Source: Anaerorhabdus furcosa
GTDB lineage: Bacteria; Bacillota_I; Bacilli_A; Erysipelotrichales; Erysipelotrichaceae
NCBI RefSeq assembly: GCF_900167375.1
Contig: NZ_FUWY01000001.1
Coordinates: 1 to 64,000 of the forward strand
Direction of reading: 5' to 3'
Length of the DNA stretch: 64,000 nucleotides
Shown here: in pieces, positions 6,490-52,496 of the stretch
Numbering within the stretch: position 1 is the first letter of the stretch
How the letters are laid out: each line of letters starts with the position of its first letter
Made by a program: the position numbers and the translations under genes
Notes under the pieces: generated by a model
What the model saw: the letters and a program-made list of their open reading frames with translations, nothing else
Databases searched by the model: none
What the model was told of the DNA's origin: nothing

Positions 6490-6590
6490 TGTTCAAAGGC
6501 GTAAGGATAAAAACTAAGAACTCCCTACGCTAGTATTAACTAGATCAGGTGATAAGGGTTAACTCTCAGCACAATGTGCACCCCTGTTCA
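6490..6590 (-). promoter_or_regulatory. TPP riboswitch (THI element) controlling thiT
   Basis: On the minus strand the canonical order is present: GGGGTGC, GCTGAGAG, ACCC, ACCTGATCTAG...TAATACTAGCGTAGGGA. P1 closure is GAAC...GTTC, and the aptamer spans about 6517-6590. Downstream, TCCTTACGC (6507-6515 region) is complementary to the aptamer 3' strand GCGTAGGGA with one G-T wobble, so it can form an alternative hairpin exclusive with the ligand-bound fold. No U-run follows, so control of the GGAGG ribosome site is more likely than termination (inference). Confidence 0.93.
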
Positions 6591-6598
6591 CGGTCTTT

Positions 6599-45176: not shown

Positions 45177-45422
45177 ACTGTTTTCTCCTTTACAATAAAA
45201 AAATCGCTCCTGTAACAGGAACGATTGAATCGCGGTACCATCCTGATTTACCTCAAACAAAAAATTGAGATACACCTTAATCCTTGATAACGGGAACCCC
45301 CGGAGATGATTAGTCTCACTATAAAGGTGAATTCATAAGTCTTGTTGCAAGTGAATTTCACCAATCATCACTCTCTCTACGCAATTCGCATCTTATTACT
45401 AATCCTTTAGTACGCTTTAATA
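45177..45422 (-). promoter_or_regulatory. Phe T-box leader (tRNA-sensing attenuator)
   Basis: On the minus strand: stem I closed by GATGATT...AATCATC with an AGAGAG K-turn-like element, a specifier TTC (Phe codon; complement at 45329-45331) in a GAATTCACC context, the T-box GGATGGTACCGCG (complement 45231-45243), then the terminator AATCGTTCCTG-TTA-CAGGAGCGATT + T7 (45195-45226). Uncharged tRNA(Phe) should stabilise the antiterminator and turn on pheST. Confidence 0.93.
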
Positions 45423-45494: not shown

Positions 45495-48116
45495 CTACTT
45501 GAATTGTTGGATAGGATTTTCTAAATTTAAGTCCTTAAACCAACTCGTTTTCCCTGCCCATTTTGTTGACATTTCATTTTTAAATGGATCTTTTGGATCT
45601 GCAAAGTGAATTCTAAAATCGTCATAATAATAATGTGATAACTCATAGTTACCAATTAATTTCCAAGAGAATTGATTGTGACCATAATTTAATCCATTCA
45701 TCGAAAATTCATAGGTTTTAAGTTCACTTCTTGGGTTGGTATACCATTTCATTTTTCCATCTATTCGCTCAATAGTACTCTCTTCATATACCAAACCATC
45801 GCGTTTATCCACAAAAACCCATGGTAAATTTAACATCACTTCATTTCTAGTAAGTGGAACTCGAATCGTACCATTTAATTTATATTTTCCAATAAATGGT
45901 AAAGCTCCTTCATTGAATATACCAAATGATTCTCCACTTTCTAGTGATGGATCTAAAACACCATTTTCTTGCATGATACCACTTTTACATTGAAATTCTT
46001 CAATTACTCTACACTCATTTTGATATTGTGTGCGGACATTTATTTTTATTCCTTTTCCTGTAAAAACTTTATGTTGATCTTGTTCTAGCTCCACAATTAA
46101 ATTTTCTTTGTAGAACTTCTCCATTTTATTTTGATCAATAGCACTTGCGACTACTCCTTCAAATTCTAGTAGTGAATCATTACTCTCCCGATATTCATAG
46201 CTCTTTTCAAAAACAGTTAATTCTATTTCTTGTTTGTCTAACTGAAATCTCAACTTCGTTTCTTTCTTTTTATTGGGAGTGAAATTGGTTTGGATTTCAT
46301 TCTTATCTTGATTCAATGTTAGAGACATTACTTTTAAGTTATCATCATAGATGAAAAGTTCTTTTGGTTTTTCTTTACAACCACTGCATTCAACTATCAT
46401 GTGAATTGGTGTTGCCTTATCAATTGAATAACTAGGCACGATTATATGATTTATATTTGCTTGATTGTTTGTAATTGAAATTACTTCTGACATGATATCA
46501 TTTCTATTTCCAACTCGATCTTCAACTACGGTGCGAATGATGTAATTACCATTTTGCATAAATGCTATTGTTTCTTCATCACTACTTAACCAATCACTTT
46601 CCTGAATGTAAGTCTCTCCACCATCACTTGATATTTCATATTTCCATCTTAATACGCCCGAATGCAAATCATGAGGTTTAATTGTAACATCAACATTTGA
46701 GTCTGAATGATATTGAATATGGTAATCAGCGTTGGGTTTATCTTGATCAATCATAAAGGCATTGGAAATTACTTCACCACTATTACCAAACAAATCAAAT
46801 AATTTCACTTTGATTCGCCATTTCCCTGTTTTATTAAATTCAAATTCTTGTATTTCTTCTTTGCCTTTTCTAATAAATTTTACTTCATTGTTGTAATCAT
46901 TTATTAAATAATATTTAACATAATCAATCACTCTTAATTCTAGTGGTATAACATCATTATATTCAATAACCTTTACATCCATCACATTTACTCTGGGATT
47001 TGTGCTATGTCCATAATGCTTATAACATGGCTTAATTGCCATACCCAATACATTATTACACCAGCCAATATCATTTGAAGATGACCAAGCATAGTCTGCT
47101 TGTATAGAACTAGCCCAATACATTGGTATTGCAATATATTGAATGCCCTTTGTTTTATCAGTCATTATATATTCAAATTCCGTTTCTTTATTTGCCAGCG
47201 ATGCATATTCTAGATAAGGCTTATCTCCTGTGATTTTCCAACCTTGTATTTGTTTTGCATTTTCCCCAATATCACGAATATGAAATGGTTCTTCATAAGC
47301 CGAATTATTCTTTCCTCTTCCCCAATCATAATAGAATGATTGAGAATTTTGAATGGGTACATAATTACTAACTAATGAAGCGGATGGAGTAAAGATTGTA
47401 TTTGCTTCTTTTACCCAATTTCCTGTACCATTTCTATTAAAATTTCCTCTTCCCAAGCATGCATTTACTTTTTTAGTTTCTGCATTTTCAATGACATCTT
47501 GTGTCCATTCAACTGTTTCATTAATCTGATACTCTAAAACTTGAAAAAAAGATAAAATATATTCATTATCATCACCTTCAAAAAGAATTACAAGATCACT
47601 CATTTCTTTCATCTCAAAATCGAGTGTGACATAATCATTTTCGCTTGTGGTAAATATAGGATTTCCTTTTACTACCATTACACCATTATTTACAAACTCT
47701 GGATAAGCATTTGCATAAATGTATTTATTAACTGATCTTTTTGTTTTATTATCATTTGCTTCAATCTTGAATACTACTTTACCAATTCTAATCGGTTTAC
47801 CAAATGCAATACTGAAATAGTTTGGATTCTTTTTTGTTCCATCTGAAATCTTTTTATAACTAGCGGTACCATTAAATATACTGGAGTCTACACTTTTGGG
47901 TTCTGAATGGGTCCCAAATATATTTTGACTAAAAGAAACAGACTTTGAATTGATATTCATTGCTTGATTTTCATCAAAATTAGTATCAAAGAAATCAAAA
48001 TAGGATACCCACTCTTTTCTAGCATAGTATGTTATTTCTGTACATTCTTCTGAATTTGCATAACTCATAAAAAATCCACTCAATAAAACAATCAAAATTA
48101 TGATTCTTTTTTTAAT
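45495..48116 (-). CDS. Large secreted protein of the Tad-like cluster, AUU start
   Basis: About 873 residues. From an ATT codon at 48116 the N-terminus reads I/M-KKRIIILIVLLSGFFMSYA, a classic signal peptide. GGAGGG lies 6 nt upstream and ATTAA overlaps the preceding stop. The first ATG-type alternatives (TTG 48095, ATG 48068) lose the basic region and are far from the ribosome site. Residues about 60-210 look like a discoidin/carbohydrate-binding beta sandwich. Around 430-560 are Ig-like repeats (IDQDKPNADYHI, DLHSGVLRWKYEISSDGG). No catalytic motif or LPXTG anchor. Last gene of the cluster, probably an exported adhesin or structural component (inference). Confidence 0.65.
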   Translation of the reverse strand: MKKRIIILIVLLSGFFMSYANSEECTEITYYARKEWVSYFDFFDTNFDENQAMNINSKSVSFSQNIFGTHSEPKSVDSSIFNGTASYKKISDGTKKNPNYFSIAFGKPIRIGKVVFKIEANDNKTKRSVNKYIYANAYPEFVNNGVMVVKGNPIFTTSENDYVTLDFEMKEMSDLVILFEGDDNEYILSFFQVLEYQINETVEWTQDVIENAETKKVNACLGRGNFNRNGTGNWVKEANTIFTPSASLVSNYVPIQNSQSFYYDWGRGKNNSAYEEPFHIRDIGENAKQIQGWKITGDKPYLEYASLANKETEFEYIMTDKTKGIQYIAIPMYWASSIQADYAWSSSNDIGWCNNVLGMAIKPCYKHYGHSTNPRVNVMDVKVIEYNDVIPLELRVIDYVKYYLINDYNNEVKFIRKGKEEIQEFEFNKTGKWRIKVKLFDLFGNSGEVISNAFMIDQDKPNADYHIQYHSDSNVDVTIKPHDLHSGVLRWKYEISSDGGETYIQESDWLSSDEETIAFMQNGNYIIRTVVEDRVGNRNDIMSEVISITNNQANINHIIVPSYSIDKATPIHMIVECSGCKEKPKELFIYDDNLKVMSLTLNQDKNEIQTNFTPNKKKETKLRFQLDKQEIELTVFEKSYEYRESNDSLLEFEGVVASAIDQNKMEKFYKENLIVELEQDQHKVFTGKGIKINVRTQYQNECRVIEEFQCKSGIMQENGVLDPSLESGESFGIFNEGALPFIGKYKLNGTIRVPLTRNEVMLNLPWVFVDKRDGLVYEESTIERIDGKMKWYTNPRSELKTYEFSMNGLNYGHNQFSWKLIGNYELSHYYYDDFRIHFADPKDPFKNEMSTKWAGKTSWFKDLNLENPIQQFK

Positions 48117-48462
48117 AAATTACCCTCCTTGTTACTTTCTTAACACTCAGTTCAAATGGAATATTTAATATTGAAATCCATGTTTCCTTTGAACATTTAA
48201 CATTGTAAGTGTAGAACTTATTCATTTCTTCTTTACTAAAAGTGCACATCAATTTAGGATGTTTGTTTAACGTATCTTGTATTATTTCTTCCGCTTCATT
48301 GTGATTACTAATTCCTTCATGAACTTCAATTACCTCCGTAATATAAGAAGCAACTGAATTTATCTCTCGATACAACATTGCGATACCAAGCAGTTGAGGA
48401 ATTAGAAATAAAAATAAGGCAAAGGTTATAATTATCCCATACATTTGTATTGATGCCTTCAT
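48112..48462 (-). CDS. TadE/pseudopilin-like membrane protein
   Basis: 116 residues. One N-terminal transmembrane helix (about 9-30, YGIIITFALFLFLIPQLLG) preceded by MKASIQM, then an external domain with a Cys pair (KLMCTF...NVKCSK). The short N-terminus and the single helix followed by a small periplasmic-side domain resemble TadE-type minor pilins. The start MxxxIQMYGIIIT closely parallels the protein at 51935. Overlaps the TadC-like gene by 4 bases. Confidence 0.6.
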   Translation of the reverse strand: MKASIQMYGIIITFALFLFLIPQLLGIAMLYREINSVASYITEVIEVHEGISNHNEAEEIIQDTLNKHPKLMCTFSKEEMNKFYTYNVKCSKETWISILNIPFELSVKKVTRRVIY

Positions 48463-49241
48463 GATAAAAACTCTCCAAAACTAATTCCTGAAAAGGATGC
48501 GATAAGTACAATCCCTACCCATAAAAAACTAATCCACGGTATTAATGCCTGTTTATCTAAAATCTTATTAAAATAATCTTTTCTTGCGTTAAAAACTCTC
48601 TCATTTGTTATCTTTGCCAAAGACATAACCATTTTCTCTTTACTCGTTGATGCATTAGAAATATTAAATAAAGTCTTTACTACTCTATTTAAATCCTTAA
48701 CTTGTTTAAATTTATTATTGAACTCCAAGTAAGGAATCAATCCTTTTTTATGTCCAATATGAATATCTGAAACTAAGATTTCTAAATCTTTTTTAAATAA
48801 CCTGGGAGCGACATCAATTGATTTATTTAAAGCGACTGGGACTGAATTATTCTGTATAAGGATACATAGATTGTTTAGATAATAAGGAAATCTTTCATCT
48901 GCTTCTAATAACTTTTTCTCATATTTTTTCTTTATTAAATAATATTGTAGTTTATAGAAAAGAATTCCTAAAATAAAATAGAATATCAAATAATTAATAC
49001 TAATATCTTTATTTAAAACTAAACAAATAATAAAAGTTGCACCAATACTTTTTTTAATTCTTTTATGTATCACTTTTTTAATATTATCTTCTCCAAGATG
49101 CTCTAAAATAAACTTAAAGTCCTTTTCAACGAAAAAATCAAAGAAATTTTCCATATGATGAGTAGCATTTCTATTCCTAAAGAACCAAAGATAAATCATA
49201 TATGTATAAAATAGTAAAAACAAAAGTAAAAAGTTATTCAT
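48459..49241 (-). CDS. TadC-like inner membrane protein (T2SSF)
   Basis: 260 residues, with membrane helices near the N-terminus (about 3-20), around 70-105 and at the C-terminus (about 235-258), typical of the GspF/TadB-TadC topology. The cytoplasmic segment RFPYYLNNLCILIQNNSVPVALNKSIDVAPR...LEILVSDI corresponds to the T2SSF domain. It should form the platform that the TadA ATPase acts on. An AAGGGGG ribosome site precedes the ATG. Confidence 0.72.
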   Translation of the reverse strand: MNNFLLLFLLFYTYMIYLWFFRNRNATHHMENFFDFFVEKDFKFILEHLGEDNIKKVIHKRIKKSIGATFIICLVLNKDISINYLIFYFILGILFYKLQYYLIKKKYEKKLLEADERFPYYLNNLCILIQNNSVPVALNKSIDVAPRLFKKDLEILVSDIHIGHKKGLIPYLEFNNKFKQVKDLNRVVKTLFNISNASTSKEKMVMSLAKITNERVFNARKDYFNKILDKQALIPWISFLWVGIVLIASFSGISFGEFLS

Positions 49242-49250
49242 AAAACCCCC

Positions 49251-50114
49251 TTATTCTAGTACCAATGTATTTGTACACCAGTTCTCATAAATAATAATTG
49301 TAATTAAGTTCAATATGTAATATAGAGTTAAAACTGCTTGCATCACACTATTTTGATTATTGGATTGTAAAGTTATAAAGTTAGTAAGACTATATACACC
49401 AAATGCATTTAATCCAAGTATTAAGTAGAAAAGATAATTATTTGATCTTCTCTTGTTTATGTATTCATTAAACGCTATCTCGTAATTTTCTATGTTTGTA
49501 TATAAATAATCAATCAGATTTTGATTTACGATACCATCAATCAACTTATGCTTTAGTATGATATGTGCATTAATCACGATTGAATAAGTGTATTTATTTT
49601 CTAGAGATTCTAATCCAGTCAGAACATCTGTTGTTTTTAGGATGTATTGATTTACTTCTTTCAAATCTCTTCTAAGAAAGTTGTTATTGCTTTCCTCACA
49701 TTCTCTTAGTATGTCCACCACTGTCTTATCTTCACGCAAATACATTAGAATGGATTGTGTGTAGATAAAAATAGAAGTTATTAGATTTATCTTAAATAAT
49801 TGTCTCTTTTTTTGATATACAACAAATGGTATGGCAACTAGATAAAGCAATGTTATCAACAAAGTTATCCTTAAGCTCTTTGTTGTGGAATAACACAATA
49901 ACCCTAGCGTTATAAATAATAAACTGGAATGTTTCATGTAATTGGATAAAGAGTAATTCATATTGAATTCATTTAGTTTTTTATTTATTCCACTATATGT
50001 ATAGCTGTTTAAGCTTTCAACGAACTGTTTTTTTATTGTTTTCACTTCTTTGTTCTCTTTAAAACTATTGTTTAAAAGAAAGAGTAAGATAAAATAAAGA
50101 CATAGTAGTATCAT
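49251..50114 (-). CDS. TadB-like inner membrane protein
   Basis: 287 residues. Hydrophobic segments at about 1-15, 60-100 and 225-275 surround a cytoplasmic helical part (SIFIYTQSILMYLREDKTVVDILRECEESNNNFLRRDLKEV), the usual plan of TadB/T2SSF proteins. More diverged than the TadC-like partner; the assignment leans on position between the ATPase and TadC-like genes. Overlaps the ATPase gene by 4 bases. Confidence 0.65.
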   Translation of the reverse strand: MILLCLYFILLFLLNNSFKENKEVKTIKKQFVESLNSYTYSGINKKLNEFNMNYSLSNYMKHSSLLFITLGLLCYSTTKSLRITLLITLLYLVAIPFVVYQKKRQLFKINLITSIFIYTQSILMYLREDKTVVDILRECEESNNNFLRRDLKEVNQYILKTTDVLTGLESLENKYTYSIVINAHIILKHKLIDGIVNQNLIDYLYTNIENYEIAFNEYINKRRSNNYLFYLILGLNAFGVYSLTNFITLQSNNQNSVMQAVLTLYYILNLITIIIYENWCTNTLVLE

Positions 50115-51142
50115 CTTAACTCCTCAATGCACTTCATGATTTGAGTCATTAATCCATTGGATAATTGATTGATTAGTCTTCCGTTTGAATAGATTTCAAT
50201 TAAATGACATTCATCATTTGAAGCATCATAATAAAATTCATGTATTGATTTTACAGTTCTTTTTATACCCACTTTTGTTTCAATTTTTTCCATATGTACA
50301 ACTAAGTCAAATAGTGCATAAATCCTTTTCTTCAATGAATCATAATTCTCATTTTCATCACGAATCATTTGTCTAATTCGTGAGGGTACATTTTCTGCTG
50401 ATTTAGCATGCATTGTTGTCATGACAGTGTGTCCTGTTGATATTGCATCAATCAAATCCCTTACTTCTTCACCTCTAGCTTCTTGTAATAAAATACGTTG
50501 AACATTAAGTCGCAATGCCATGGATATGATTGTTGAATAGGTGTAGTTCTTTCTTATTCTAAAAGCTGTACAAGATAGTTCAGGAGCTATTGACTTAACA
50601 TTAAACTCCATCGAATCCTCAATTGTTACAATTACTTCATTTTTTGGAATATAGGGAATTAAAAACTTTAATAATTCTGTCTTTCCAGACCCAGTTTCAC
50701 CAATAAATAATAAATTAGCTCTTCCTTTAACTGCATAAATTAATACATCCAGTGCTTTTTTGCTTATTGTTTTATCTTGTATTAATCGATCATAAGTTAG
50801 AAATTGTTTTTTTCTTACCTTTCGAATCACAAGAGTTGTGCCTTCTTGAGACAAATAAGAATGTACACATCCCACTCGATAATCTAACTTATCTTTTTGA
50901 ATATCACCTTCCAAACTCGGATTAGCGGGATTAAATTCTTTTTGCATTTTGTTTGCGATTTGATTCGCAATTCTTTCCACTTCAGATTCACTAATGAACA
51001 TCTGTGATTTATAGTGTCCCTTATCATTTGATGTTATCCAAATTTCATTTCCATTCTTGCAGGCAACATCCGTTATATCTTCTTGTTCAAGTAAATTTTG
51101 AAGTAAACCAAAATCGATTTCATTGAAGTTTCCATCACTCAT
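50111..51142 (-). CDS. TadA/CpaF-type secretion ATPase
   Basis: 343 residues. N-terminal domain with ITDVACKNGNEIWIT and DYRVGCVHSYLSQEGTTLVIRK. Walker A is FIGETGSGKTELLKFL (about residue 147), Asp box TIEDSMEF, Walker B/His box ILLQEARGEEVRDLIDAISTGH and TTMHAKSAENVPSR. This is the hexameric ATPase of Tad/type II systems. Start at the ATG at 51142 because GAGG lies 8 nt upstream; the frame extends five codons further. It overlaps the CpaB-like gene by 8 bases. Confidence 0.88.
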   Translation of the reverse strand: MSDGNFNEIDFGLLQNLLEQEDITDVACKNGNEIWITSNDKGHYKSQMFISESEVERIANQIANKMQKEFNPANPSLEGDIQKDKLDYRVGCVHSYLSQEGTTLVIRKVRKKQFLTYDRLIQDKTISKKALDVLIYAVKGRANLLFIGETGSGKTELLKFLIPYIPKNEVIVTIEDSMEFNVKSIAPELSCTAFRIRKNYTYSTIISMALRLNVQRILLQEARGEEVRDLIDAISTGHTVMTTMHAKSAENVPSRIRQMIRDENENYDSLKKRIYALFDLVVHMEKIETKVGIKRTVKSIHEFYYDASNDECHLIEIYSNGRLINQLSNGLMTQIMKCIEELR

Positions 51143-51938
51143 TTTGTTCTTCCTCATTCATTGATATTAAAGTTACATCAAGTGAATTACCAAGAATAAT
51201 ATTTCTGATCTTGTAATAGTCATAGTAATCTGTTGCCTCACTTTGACTAATGTTGTCATATGAAATTACAGGGGTGACACTTCCCATCGCTTTTGCTACA
51301 CCAACTAGATGAGCATCTTCTTTAGATAACGCAACAACCAATACATTTGATTCTAGCTCAGTATCACTTTCAATCGAATTTCCCTCTTTATCTTTAACTG
51401 CAATAACTCTTGCATTCTTTACAATTTCACCATGAACAATTGCTTGATTTGCAGCGCCTTGATTCATATTGACTTTACCTAAAAAATACAAATCAATTAA
51501 ATGACCTACCAAAATGGAATTCGCATAGGATGTTTTCATATCGACATCAATTGATATCGCTACCTCGCCTTCTTGTAAGAAGAATAGGTTTGCATCATTC
51601 ATATTTTCTTTGTCTGCTATTAAATCATGATAAAACAATGAGTTCTGTGCAATTGACTGATATGGCTTTACATACTTTCCAATAATGTCTTCTTTATCTA
51701 GTGAAACATTTTCTAAGGTAATGCATTTTGGTACTTCAATATATTTGATATCCTCTTCCATTACAATTGTTCTAGACCCCATTGACTTTGCTGCTACAGG
51801 TACTAACACCAGATCACTTATTTCATTGATAGCGCTTTGGTAAGAAGCCATACACAAGACACCTACGACGATAGTTAAAAGTAGTGTAATCGTTGTTTTA
51901 TGCTTATATAGAGTATTTTTGTTGCTCTTAAATTTCAT
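51135..51938 (-). CDS. CpaB/RcpC-like SAF-domain protein
   Basis: 267 residues. One N-terminal membrane helix (about 13-32), then an SAF domain (VLVPVAAKSMGSRTIVMEEDIKYIEVPK...IGKYVKPYQSIAQNSLFY) and a C-terminal beta domain (QEGEVAISIDVD, SILVGHLIDLYFLGK) as in CpaB. In diderm Tad systems CpaB works at the secretin; here there is no outer membrane, so it may act in the cell wall as a pilus guide (inference). Overlaps neighbours on both sides. Confidence 0.78.
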   Translation of the reverse strand: MKFKSNKNTLYKHKTTITLLLTIVVGVLCMASYQSAINEISDLVLVPVAAKSMGSRTIVMEEDIKYIEVPKCITLENVSLDKEDIIGKYVKPYQSIAQNSLFYHDLIADKENMNDANLFFLQEGEVAISIDVDMKTSYANSILVGHLIDLYFLGKVNMNQGAANQAIVHGEIVKNARVIAVKDKEGNSIESDTELESNVLVVALSKEDAHLVGVAKAMGSVTPVISYDNISQSEATDYYDYYKIRNIILGNSLDVTLISMNEEEQNE

Positions 51939-52336
51939 GAAGTACTCCTTTCTTCAATTAAAACGAGGTTGGTATAGTCAAGTTCCAATTCATCCTCCAT
52001 CATATTCAAAGATGAATAACCTCGAATTCGAATCGCAATTGCAGGTGGAGTTTCATGAATACCAACAAAATCGATTACATAATGATATTTATCGTTTTTA
52101 TTTTCTTCGAATTTTTTCATCCAACTACGCATTGTTTCTTCACTAGAAATCGAATAATCACCATTGACAAATAACTCACCTAGATTTAAATTATCCTGAA
52201 TTACAGATAACTGCGTTGTTCTTGTACTCTCAAAAATGTCATCTTCTAAGAAAATACGTTGGTTAAAATTCATTAATAGAAATAAAGCAATACTACCTGT
52301 TATGATAATTCCATATATTTTGATTACTCCACCCAT
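51935..52336 (-). CDS. Pseudopilin/TadE-like small membrane protein
   Basis: 133 residues. N-terminus MGGVIKIYGIIITGSIALFL gives one membrane helix (about 6-24), then an external alpha/beta domain (DDIFESTRTTQLSVIQDNLN... YHYVIDFVGIHETPPAIAIRIRG). No Cys. The K-x-YGIIIT start matches the protein at 48112 (IQMYGIIIT). No canonical Gly-x4-Glu prepilin site. Coupled to the CpaB-like gene by a 4-base overlap. Confidence 0.6.
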   Translation of the reverse strand: MGGVIKIYGIIITGSIALFLLMNFNQRIFLEDDIFESTRTTQLSVIQDNLNLGELFVNGDYSISSEETMRSWMKKFEENKNDKYHYVIDFVGIHETPPAIAIRIRGYSSLNMMEDELELDYTNLVLIEERSTS

Positions 52337-52346
52337 TGCTTATCAC

Positions 52347-52496
52347 TTAATCTCCTATTTCTGCTATTTTATCTAGTTGTGCTGTAATGTTTTCATTTAT
52401 TTTACCGATAAATCCATTCTTTAGATTTAAAATGAGAGCACCAATTAAAACAATAGATAATATAAATCCTCCATATTCTTGTAATATTTCTTTCAT
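52347..52496 (-). CDS. 49-residue pilin-like peptide (Flp-like candidate)
   Basis: 49 residues from an ATG with GGGAAGG 5 nt upstream. It begins MKEILQEYGGFILSIVLIGA: a charged start, an Glu-Tyr pair, then a hydrophobic helix (about 9-25), ending in an amphipathic charged tail (KINENITAQLDKIAEIGD). Flp pilins are about this size and carry EY at the start of the hydrophobic helix, but need a Gly cleavage site that is absent here. First gene of the Tad-like cluster, the usual position of the major pilin gene. Its AGGAG-containing 3' end probably serves the next gene. Confidence 0.65.
   Translation of the reverse strand: MKEILQEYGGFILSIVLIGALILNLKNGFIGKINENITAQLDKIAEIGD

Follow-up and report, generated by a model that had tools for sequence, protein, structure and literature searches.

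A conserved Tad-like operon with a leaderless Flp-related pilin in Anaerorhabdus furcosa and its relatives

The stretch of DNA analysed here (the window) comprises 64,000 nucleotides of Anaerorhabdus furcosa, positions 1 to 64,000 of contig NZ_FUWY01000001.1. On its minus strand, at 45495-52496, it carries a conserved operon of eight genes, in which a Tad-type motor, platform and CpaB protein are combined with a 49-residue protein that is, judged by its sequence, a leaderless relative of the pilin Flp. We propose that the operon encodes a Tad-derived machine working without TadV and TadZ, which would build a short filament out of pilins synthesised close to their mature length and would display or export a large protein with immunoglobulin (Ig)-like regions. 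The probability of this reading was estimated at about one half.

The operon and its conservation

All eight open reading frames (ORFs) were verified on the minus strand at the place given by the original prediction, which had been made from the sequence alone, and all of them are open. In the order of transcription they are as follows.

52347-52496, minus strand: leaderless Flp-like pilin, 49 residues, start MKEILQEYGGFILSIVLIGALI; ORF with ribosome-binding site GGGAAGG, conserved first gene in relatives
51935-52336, minus strand: DUF5411 protein, 133 residues, putative pilin-like minor subunit; PF17424, E=5.8e-40
51135-51938, minus strand: CpaB/RcpC-type protein with N-terminal membrane helix, 267 residues; PF16976, 2.7e-11 (above cut-off); TIGR03177, 1.9e-12 (below cut-off)
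50111-51157, minus strand: TadA/CpaF-type motor ATPase, 348 residues; PF00437 (T2SSE), 9.1e-30
49251-50114, minus strand: TadB-like platform protein, 287 residues; no Pfam match, profile-profile match to canonical TadB
48459-49241, minus strand: TadC-like platform protein, 260 residues; assigned from position and conservation
48112-48462, minus strand: second pilin-like (TadE-like) protein, 116 residues, start MKASIQMYGIII; weak DUF4320 match (E=0.012), place conserved in relatives
45495-48116, minus strand: large secreted protein with signal peptide and Ig-like regions, probable ATT start; assigned from the start region and relatives

Relatives of the TadA protein were searched for in 146 genomes of the same family (Erysipelotrichaceae) and were found at 52-58% identity in five of them. 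These five genomes, belonging to two other genera, contain six further loci in which the eight genes stand in unchanged order: two in G020, one of which lies on contig CAMQTJ010000010 of a Holdemania sp. metagenome-assembled genome, and one each in G035, G078, G104 (partly masked with N) and G126. Such recurrence shows that the pattern is not due to chance, and the conserved co-occurrence for which the original prediction had asked is borne out. Identity of the large protein to its relatives is about 30%.

A second copy, on contig 4 of the A. furcosa genome (L042:8119-9810, minus strand), is decaying. Its MKAFFEEYG-type pilin is frameshifted, the DUF5411 gene is truncated and TadA is broken off after about 60 matching residues, while CpaB is intact; of the two copies it is thus the window one that has stayed intact. 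The case named as speaking against the prediction was a canonical tad locus in another place, with the window locus as its remnant. This was rejected, the reverse being observed.

The operon contains a motor ATPase of the CpaF/TadA type. The profile of its TadA clade had the solved CpaF structure 8rkd as top structure match (1.9e-36), and the window TadA matched the TadA-family model with E=8.9e-43, though below the cut-off of that model. In a maximum-likelihood tree of TadA, in which canonical sequences were few and the outgroup was a single distant one, one branch splits the leaderless from the canonical systems with support 100/99; distant TadA outgroups that produced long-branch artefacts were dropped. 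Neither the two platform proteins nor the pilin gave a meaningful Pfam match. In profile-profile comparison the TadB-like protein matched the canonical TadB of the family (E=3.1e-6, probability 88), and the TadC-like protein matched the TadB-like profile weakly (E=3.9e-4). CpaB/RcpC, recognised by PF16976, is kept in nearly all loci. The RcpC of Pseudomonas assembles into a dodecameric ring whose pore matches a pilus in size (PMC12307814).

Pilin N-termini and the prepilin peptidase

The window pilin, MKEILQEYGGFIL, begins with MK/EILQEYGG, the slash marking the site that corresponds to the cut in canonical Flps; Glu-Tyr is kept and only Met-Lys stands in front of the core. Canonical Flps of the family, e.g., MKNWLLDESG/QGMVEYGLII, are cut behind a Gly and carry Glu-Tyr-Gly at positions +5 to +7. 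Alignment on EYG leaves just Met-Lys ahead, so that Lys occupies the Gly(-1) site. Comparison of the profiles of window-type mini-pilins and canonical Flps likewise placed EYG on EYG (E=1.1e-4, probability 56), and window-type mini-pilins matched those of uncultured Bacilli with E=5.4e-6. No classical Flp had been recognised in the original prediction; the 49-residue protein is instead an Flp relative with Glu-Tyr-Gly at the expected place, in which the leader and its Gly(-1) are absent.

Lys2 was present in 52 of 52 distinct mini-pilins with Glu7, which were picked by Glu7, Lys2 being no selection criterion. They come from the window clade, from a minimal Tad-like operon that is widespread in the family, from loci of uncultured Bacilli and from L178 and L179. 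The latter two loci represent a fourth, more divergent leaderless arrangement, with several leaderless small proteins and only one TadB/TadC-like protein, which has 498 residues and looks like a fusion. In the window clade and in the minimal operons, 97 small proteins encoded close to TadA have a membrane helix at the N-terminus; none of these had a G-x4-E/D site, whereas the canonical loci L173 and L174 had seven leadered Flps and two other motif-bearing proteins. The relaxed site [GA]x4[DE] was found in 0 of 43 DUF5411 proteins and 1 of 62 TadE-like proteins from the uncultured Bacilli loci. DUF5411 and TadE-like proteins of the window clade are without Glu at position 7.

The predicted lack of a prepilin peptidase and of TadZ in the locus was supported. 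None of the eight operon products, to which the search for TadZ was confined, matched a ParA-type family in Pfam, and no dedicated TadV is encoded in or near the locus. The genome-wide peptidase search that had been suggested gave one intact A24 peptidase, located on contig 7 beside another type IV pilus locus with PilB/PilT. Canonical control loci contain both TadV (an A24 peptidase, E=3.3e-12 in L173) and TadZ. Loci were assigned to the leaderless or the canonical kind from the similarity and the length of their TadA, with pilins read in about half of them; an A24 gene lay within 12 kb of TadA in 0 of 43 leaderless and 9 of 11 canonical loci (Fisher p = 1e-8, a nominal value given the relatedness of the genomes and the shortness of some contigs). 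Three genomes, G108, G129 and G143, hold both kinds of locus, and the peptidase adjoins only the canonical one.

The last residue of a prepilin leader is Gly or Ala (PMC10191384). The ComG and type IV pilus prepilins of the A. furcosa genome keep Gly(-1) and Glu5, so that substrates of the usual kind exist for the resident peptidase. This sequence argument, i.e., the residue at the leader end taken together with the resident prepilins, does most of the work in the case for pilins that would escape cleavage. Of the two options offered in the original prediction, a distant peptidase or uncleaved pilins, the leaderless N-termini support the second as an option. No A24 peptidase above the cut-off was found in G103, G032 and G076 (genus g33), yet their ComG prepilins have normal cleavage sites; the enzyme was therefore probably missed in the search, being divergent or lost in an assembly gap. 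The A. furcosa genome has three further type IV filament loci, with a PilT-type ATPase and PilC-like and pilin-like genes (L008, contig 2, 101-112 kb), PilB/PilT/PilD (L009, contig 7) and ComG (L010, contig 6), respectively.

Accessory proteins, gene starts and flanking features

The second gene product had been taken for the first of two TadE-like proteins, but it belongs to DUF5411. The AlphaFold2 model of this protein (mean predicted local distance difference test score, pLDDT, 78.5) shows a single long N-terminal helix, residues 2-49, followed by two helices and three strands, a predicted layout compatible with a pilin. The large protein is present in a single copy in the A. furcosa genome and was found there, as in the five other carriers, only inside such operons; it was not found in nine genomes of the family without the eight-gene form. 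Three of its six relatives have Ig-like Pfam domains; in the window protein itself an OmpL47-type domain was weakly matched. Searches of its sequence against the PDB gave no match, and its AlphaFold2 model, based on two sequences, had a pLDDT of 31.7 and was discarded as unusable.

Judging from the start region, the large gene most likely begins with the ATT at 48116, rather than with the TTG at 48095. The ATT gives back the full signal peptide MKKRIIILIVLLSGFFMSYA and has an AGGAGGG ribosome site in front; in the five relatives examined, the equivalent position holds TTG in four and ATG in one. The genes had been described as almost all overlapping. Junctions do overlap, by 4 bases (DUF5411/CpaB, TadA/TadB and TadC/TadE-like) or 23 bases (CpaB/TadA), but the wording is slightly too strong, because 10 bases separate the pilin from DUF5411 and 9 bases TadB from TadC. 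A scan for promoters and terminators found promoter-like sites no commoner than in shuffled sequence. Directly after the operon, upstream of pheS, lies a T-box leader (45214-45421, minus strand), and a thiamine pyrophosphate riboswitch was located elsewhere in the window, at 6505-6595.

Proposed assembly, alternatives and related systems

In the proposed machine, the CpaF-type ATPase (gene 4) would drive the TadB/TadC-like platform (genes 5 and 6), which would assemble the 49-residue pilin (gene 1), translated near its mature length as Met-Lys followed by the Flp core xxxxEY. Cleavage by TadV would not be needed, because the pilin is made as Met-Lys directly before the core. In known filaments a salt bridge joins Glu5 and the N-terminal amine of different subunits, and capping subunits are without Glu5 (PMC10191384). 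Lys2 may replace the freed amine as the positive partner of Glu5 in the neighbouring subunit, and the DUF5411 and TadE-like proteins, leaderless and Glu-less, are as one would expect of tip or priming subunits. CpaB would serve as a guide ring above the membrane, and the product could be a filament or a short pseudopilus. As the client that is displayed or exported, the large Sec-exported protein (gene 8) would be comparable to PilY1; it would most likely be an adhesin or binding protein. A broader version, which we put forward tentatively and with the balance leaning slightly against it, is that a whole clade of type IV filament machines in Bacillota builds filaments from pre-trimmed pilins without a prepilin peptidase, the part of the processed N-terminus being taken by Lys2.

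Several results weigh against the filament proposal. The TadC-like protein did not significantly match canonical TadC (E=0.03), the profile match to Flp is modest, and the predicted DUF5411 fold had no significant match in the PDB, solved pilins included. The canonical set used for comparison is small, with 7 Flps and 11 loci. MK is a common start of bacterial proteins and the 52 mini-pilins are related, so that Lys2 does not count as 52 independent observations. Finally, A24 genes are present elsewhere in the carrier genomes, in 51 of 52 in one set and 39 of 43 in another. Genome-wide absence of A24 was consequently rejected as a proof of peptidase-free assembly, and gene content alone cannot show escape from cleavage, because nearly every carrier has an A24 peptidase somewhere.

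The main alternative, which we regard as rather unlikely, dispenses with the filament: the TadABC core would move or cluster the three leaderless proteins, each a bitopic protein permanently anchored in the membrane, and thereby act as a piston-like platform for export or display of the large protein. Assembly requires prior processing, and prepilins left uncleaved do not normally assemble (PMC10191384), which fits an operon where every pilin-like protein is leaderless; the large protein is, moreover, strictly tied to the eight-gene form, and a related DUF5411/CpaF operon is labelled secretion-related in Miller et al. (2022; PMC9523054). However, it is hard to see in these terms why the mini-pilin keeps the Flp core with the Glu used in subunit docking, or why CpaB/RcpC, the guide ring of the pilus in Tad systems, is retained so widely. 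The large protein also has its own Sec signal peptide, and other minimal operons of the family are without such a large protein.

An ordinary Tad pilus that borrows the single A24 peptidase, which would cut at an unusual place such as behind Lys2 or a Gly close to where the helix begins, seems improbable to us. One intact A24 gene does exist in the genome, A24 is present in nearly all carriers, and sharing of a peptidase is known, e.g., for MSH loci without one of their own (PMC6668835). Still, position -1, which in leaders is Gly or Ala (PMC10191384), is Lys in all 52 mini-pilins, other prepilins of the same genome keep Gly(-1) and Glu5, and a leader of two residues would be far shorter than those of the canonical Flps of the family. 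Very improbable indeed is a remnant or non-functional locus, or one whose small ORFs are no pilins at all. Such a view could draw on the decayed sister copy on contig 4 and on the several small proteins without Pfam match, but the eight genes are open and keep their order in other genera, and the mini-pilins show strong conservation at their start.

The proposed Tad-derived machine resembles the Tad/Flp (type IVc) pilus, represented here by the in-family controls L173 and L174 and by Bulleidia extructa (PMC12786226), in having a CpaF/TadA motor, a TadB-like protein, CpaB/RcpC, a small Flp-like major pilin with Glu-Tyr and extra pilin-like minor proteins. It differs in that the operon is without TadV and TadZ, none of its pilin-like proteins has a leader or Gly(-1), its TadA is shorter (348 vs. 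about 450 residues) and a large Sec-exported protein is included. As the leader, TadV and TadZ are missing, the system is a variant of the Tad kind and no member in the strict sense.

Three other groups of loci come close. Miller et al. (2022; PMC9523054) predicted a secretion-related operon of 8-9 genes in Roseburia, Ruminococcus and Eubacterium; compared by description only, it shares with the window operon CpaF, a PilC/GspF-type protein (an assignment that in our case rests on the TadB profile match), DUF5411, a large protein of cell-surface type and occurrence in gut Bacillota, whereas the section on that operon mentions neither CpaB nor leaderless pilins. With regard to the partial internalin-B-like region of its large protein, a large protein is present here as well, but the only domains detected were the Ig-like ones in the relatives and the weak OmpL47-type domain. 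Imam et al. (2011; PMC3244431) described Tad-like loci in Clostridium kluyveri and others with tad genes and rcpC but without a protein bearing the prepilin signal motif; those loci have tadV and tadZ, and a pilin encoded at near-mature length does not figure in the passage on them. Finally, the DUF5411 loci of uncultured Bacilli (L082-L136) share the order DUF5411-CpaB-TadA-TadB-TadC, TadE-like proteins, a large secreted protein and one or more leaderless mini-pilins, there MKEATGELN... Unlike in the window operon, the pilins follow TadC, the large protein comes first, and a 326-334-residue protein of no known family is found together with genes resembling parts of type IV secretion systems (T4SS). 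The latter, in L106:13800-18900, L116:14557-14928 and similar loci, are T4SS_pilin-like (E=1.1e-4) and TrbL-like (E=5e-11) and stand after the DUF5411 operon; the Tad-like and T4SS-like sets may work together.

Neither the leaderless rule nor unprocessed pilin systems had a match in the literature searched, outside of which most subscription journals lay. Cleavage of the prepilin is regarded as the obligatory start of type IV filament assembly. A conserved clade of leaderless pilins that keep the Glu would allow direct tests of whether cleavage, N-methylation and the Glu5-amine salt bridge are needed. Programs that recognise pilins by the cleavage motif would overlook these ones, and counts of such machines in gut and uncultured Bacillota would therefore be too low. 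The leaderless systems may constitute a class of type IV filament machines in which a supposedly universal step is omitted.

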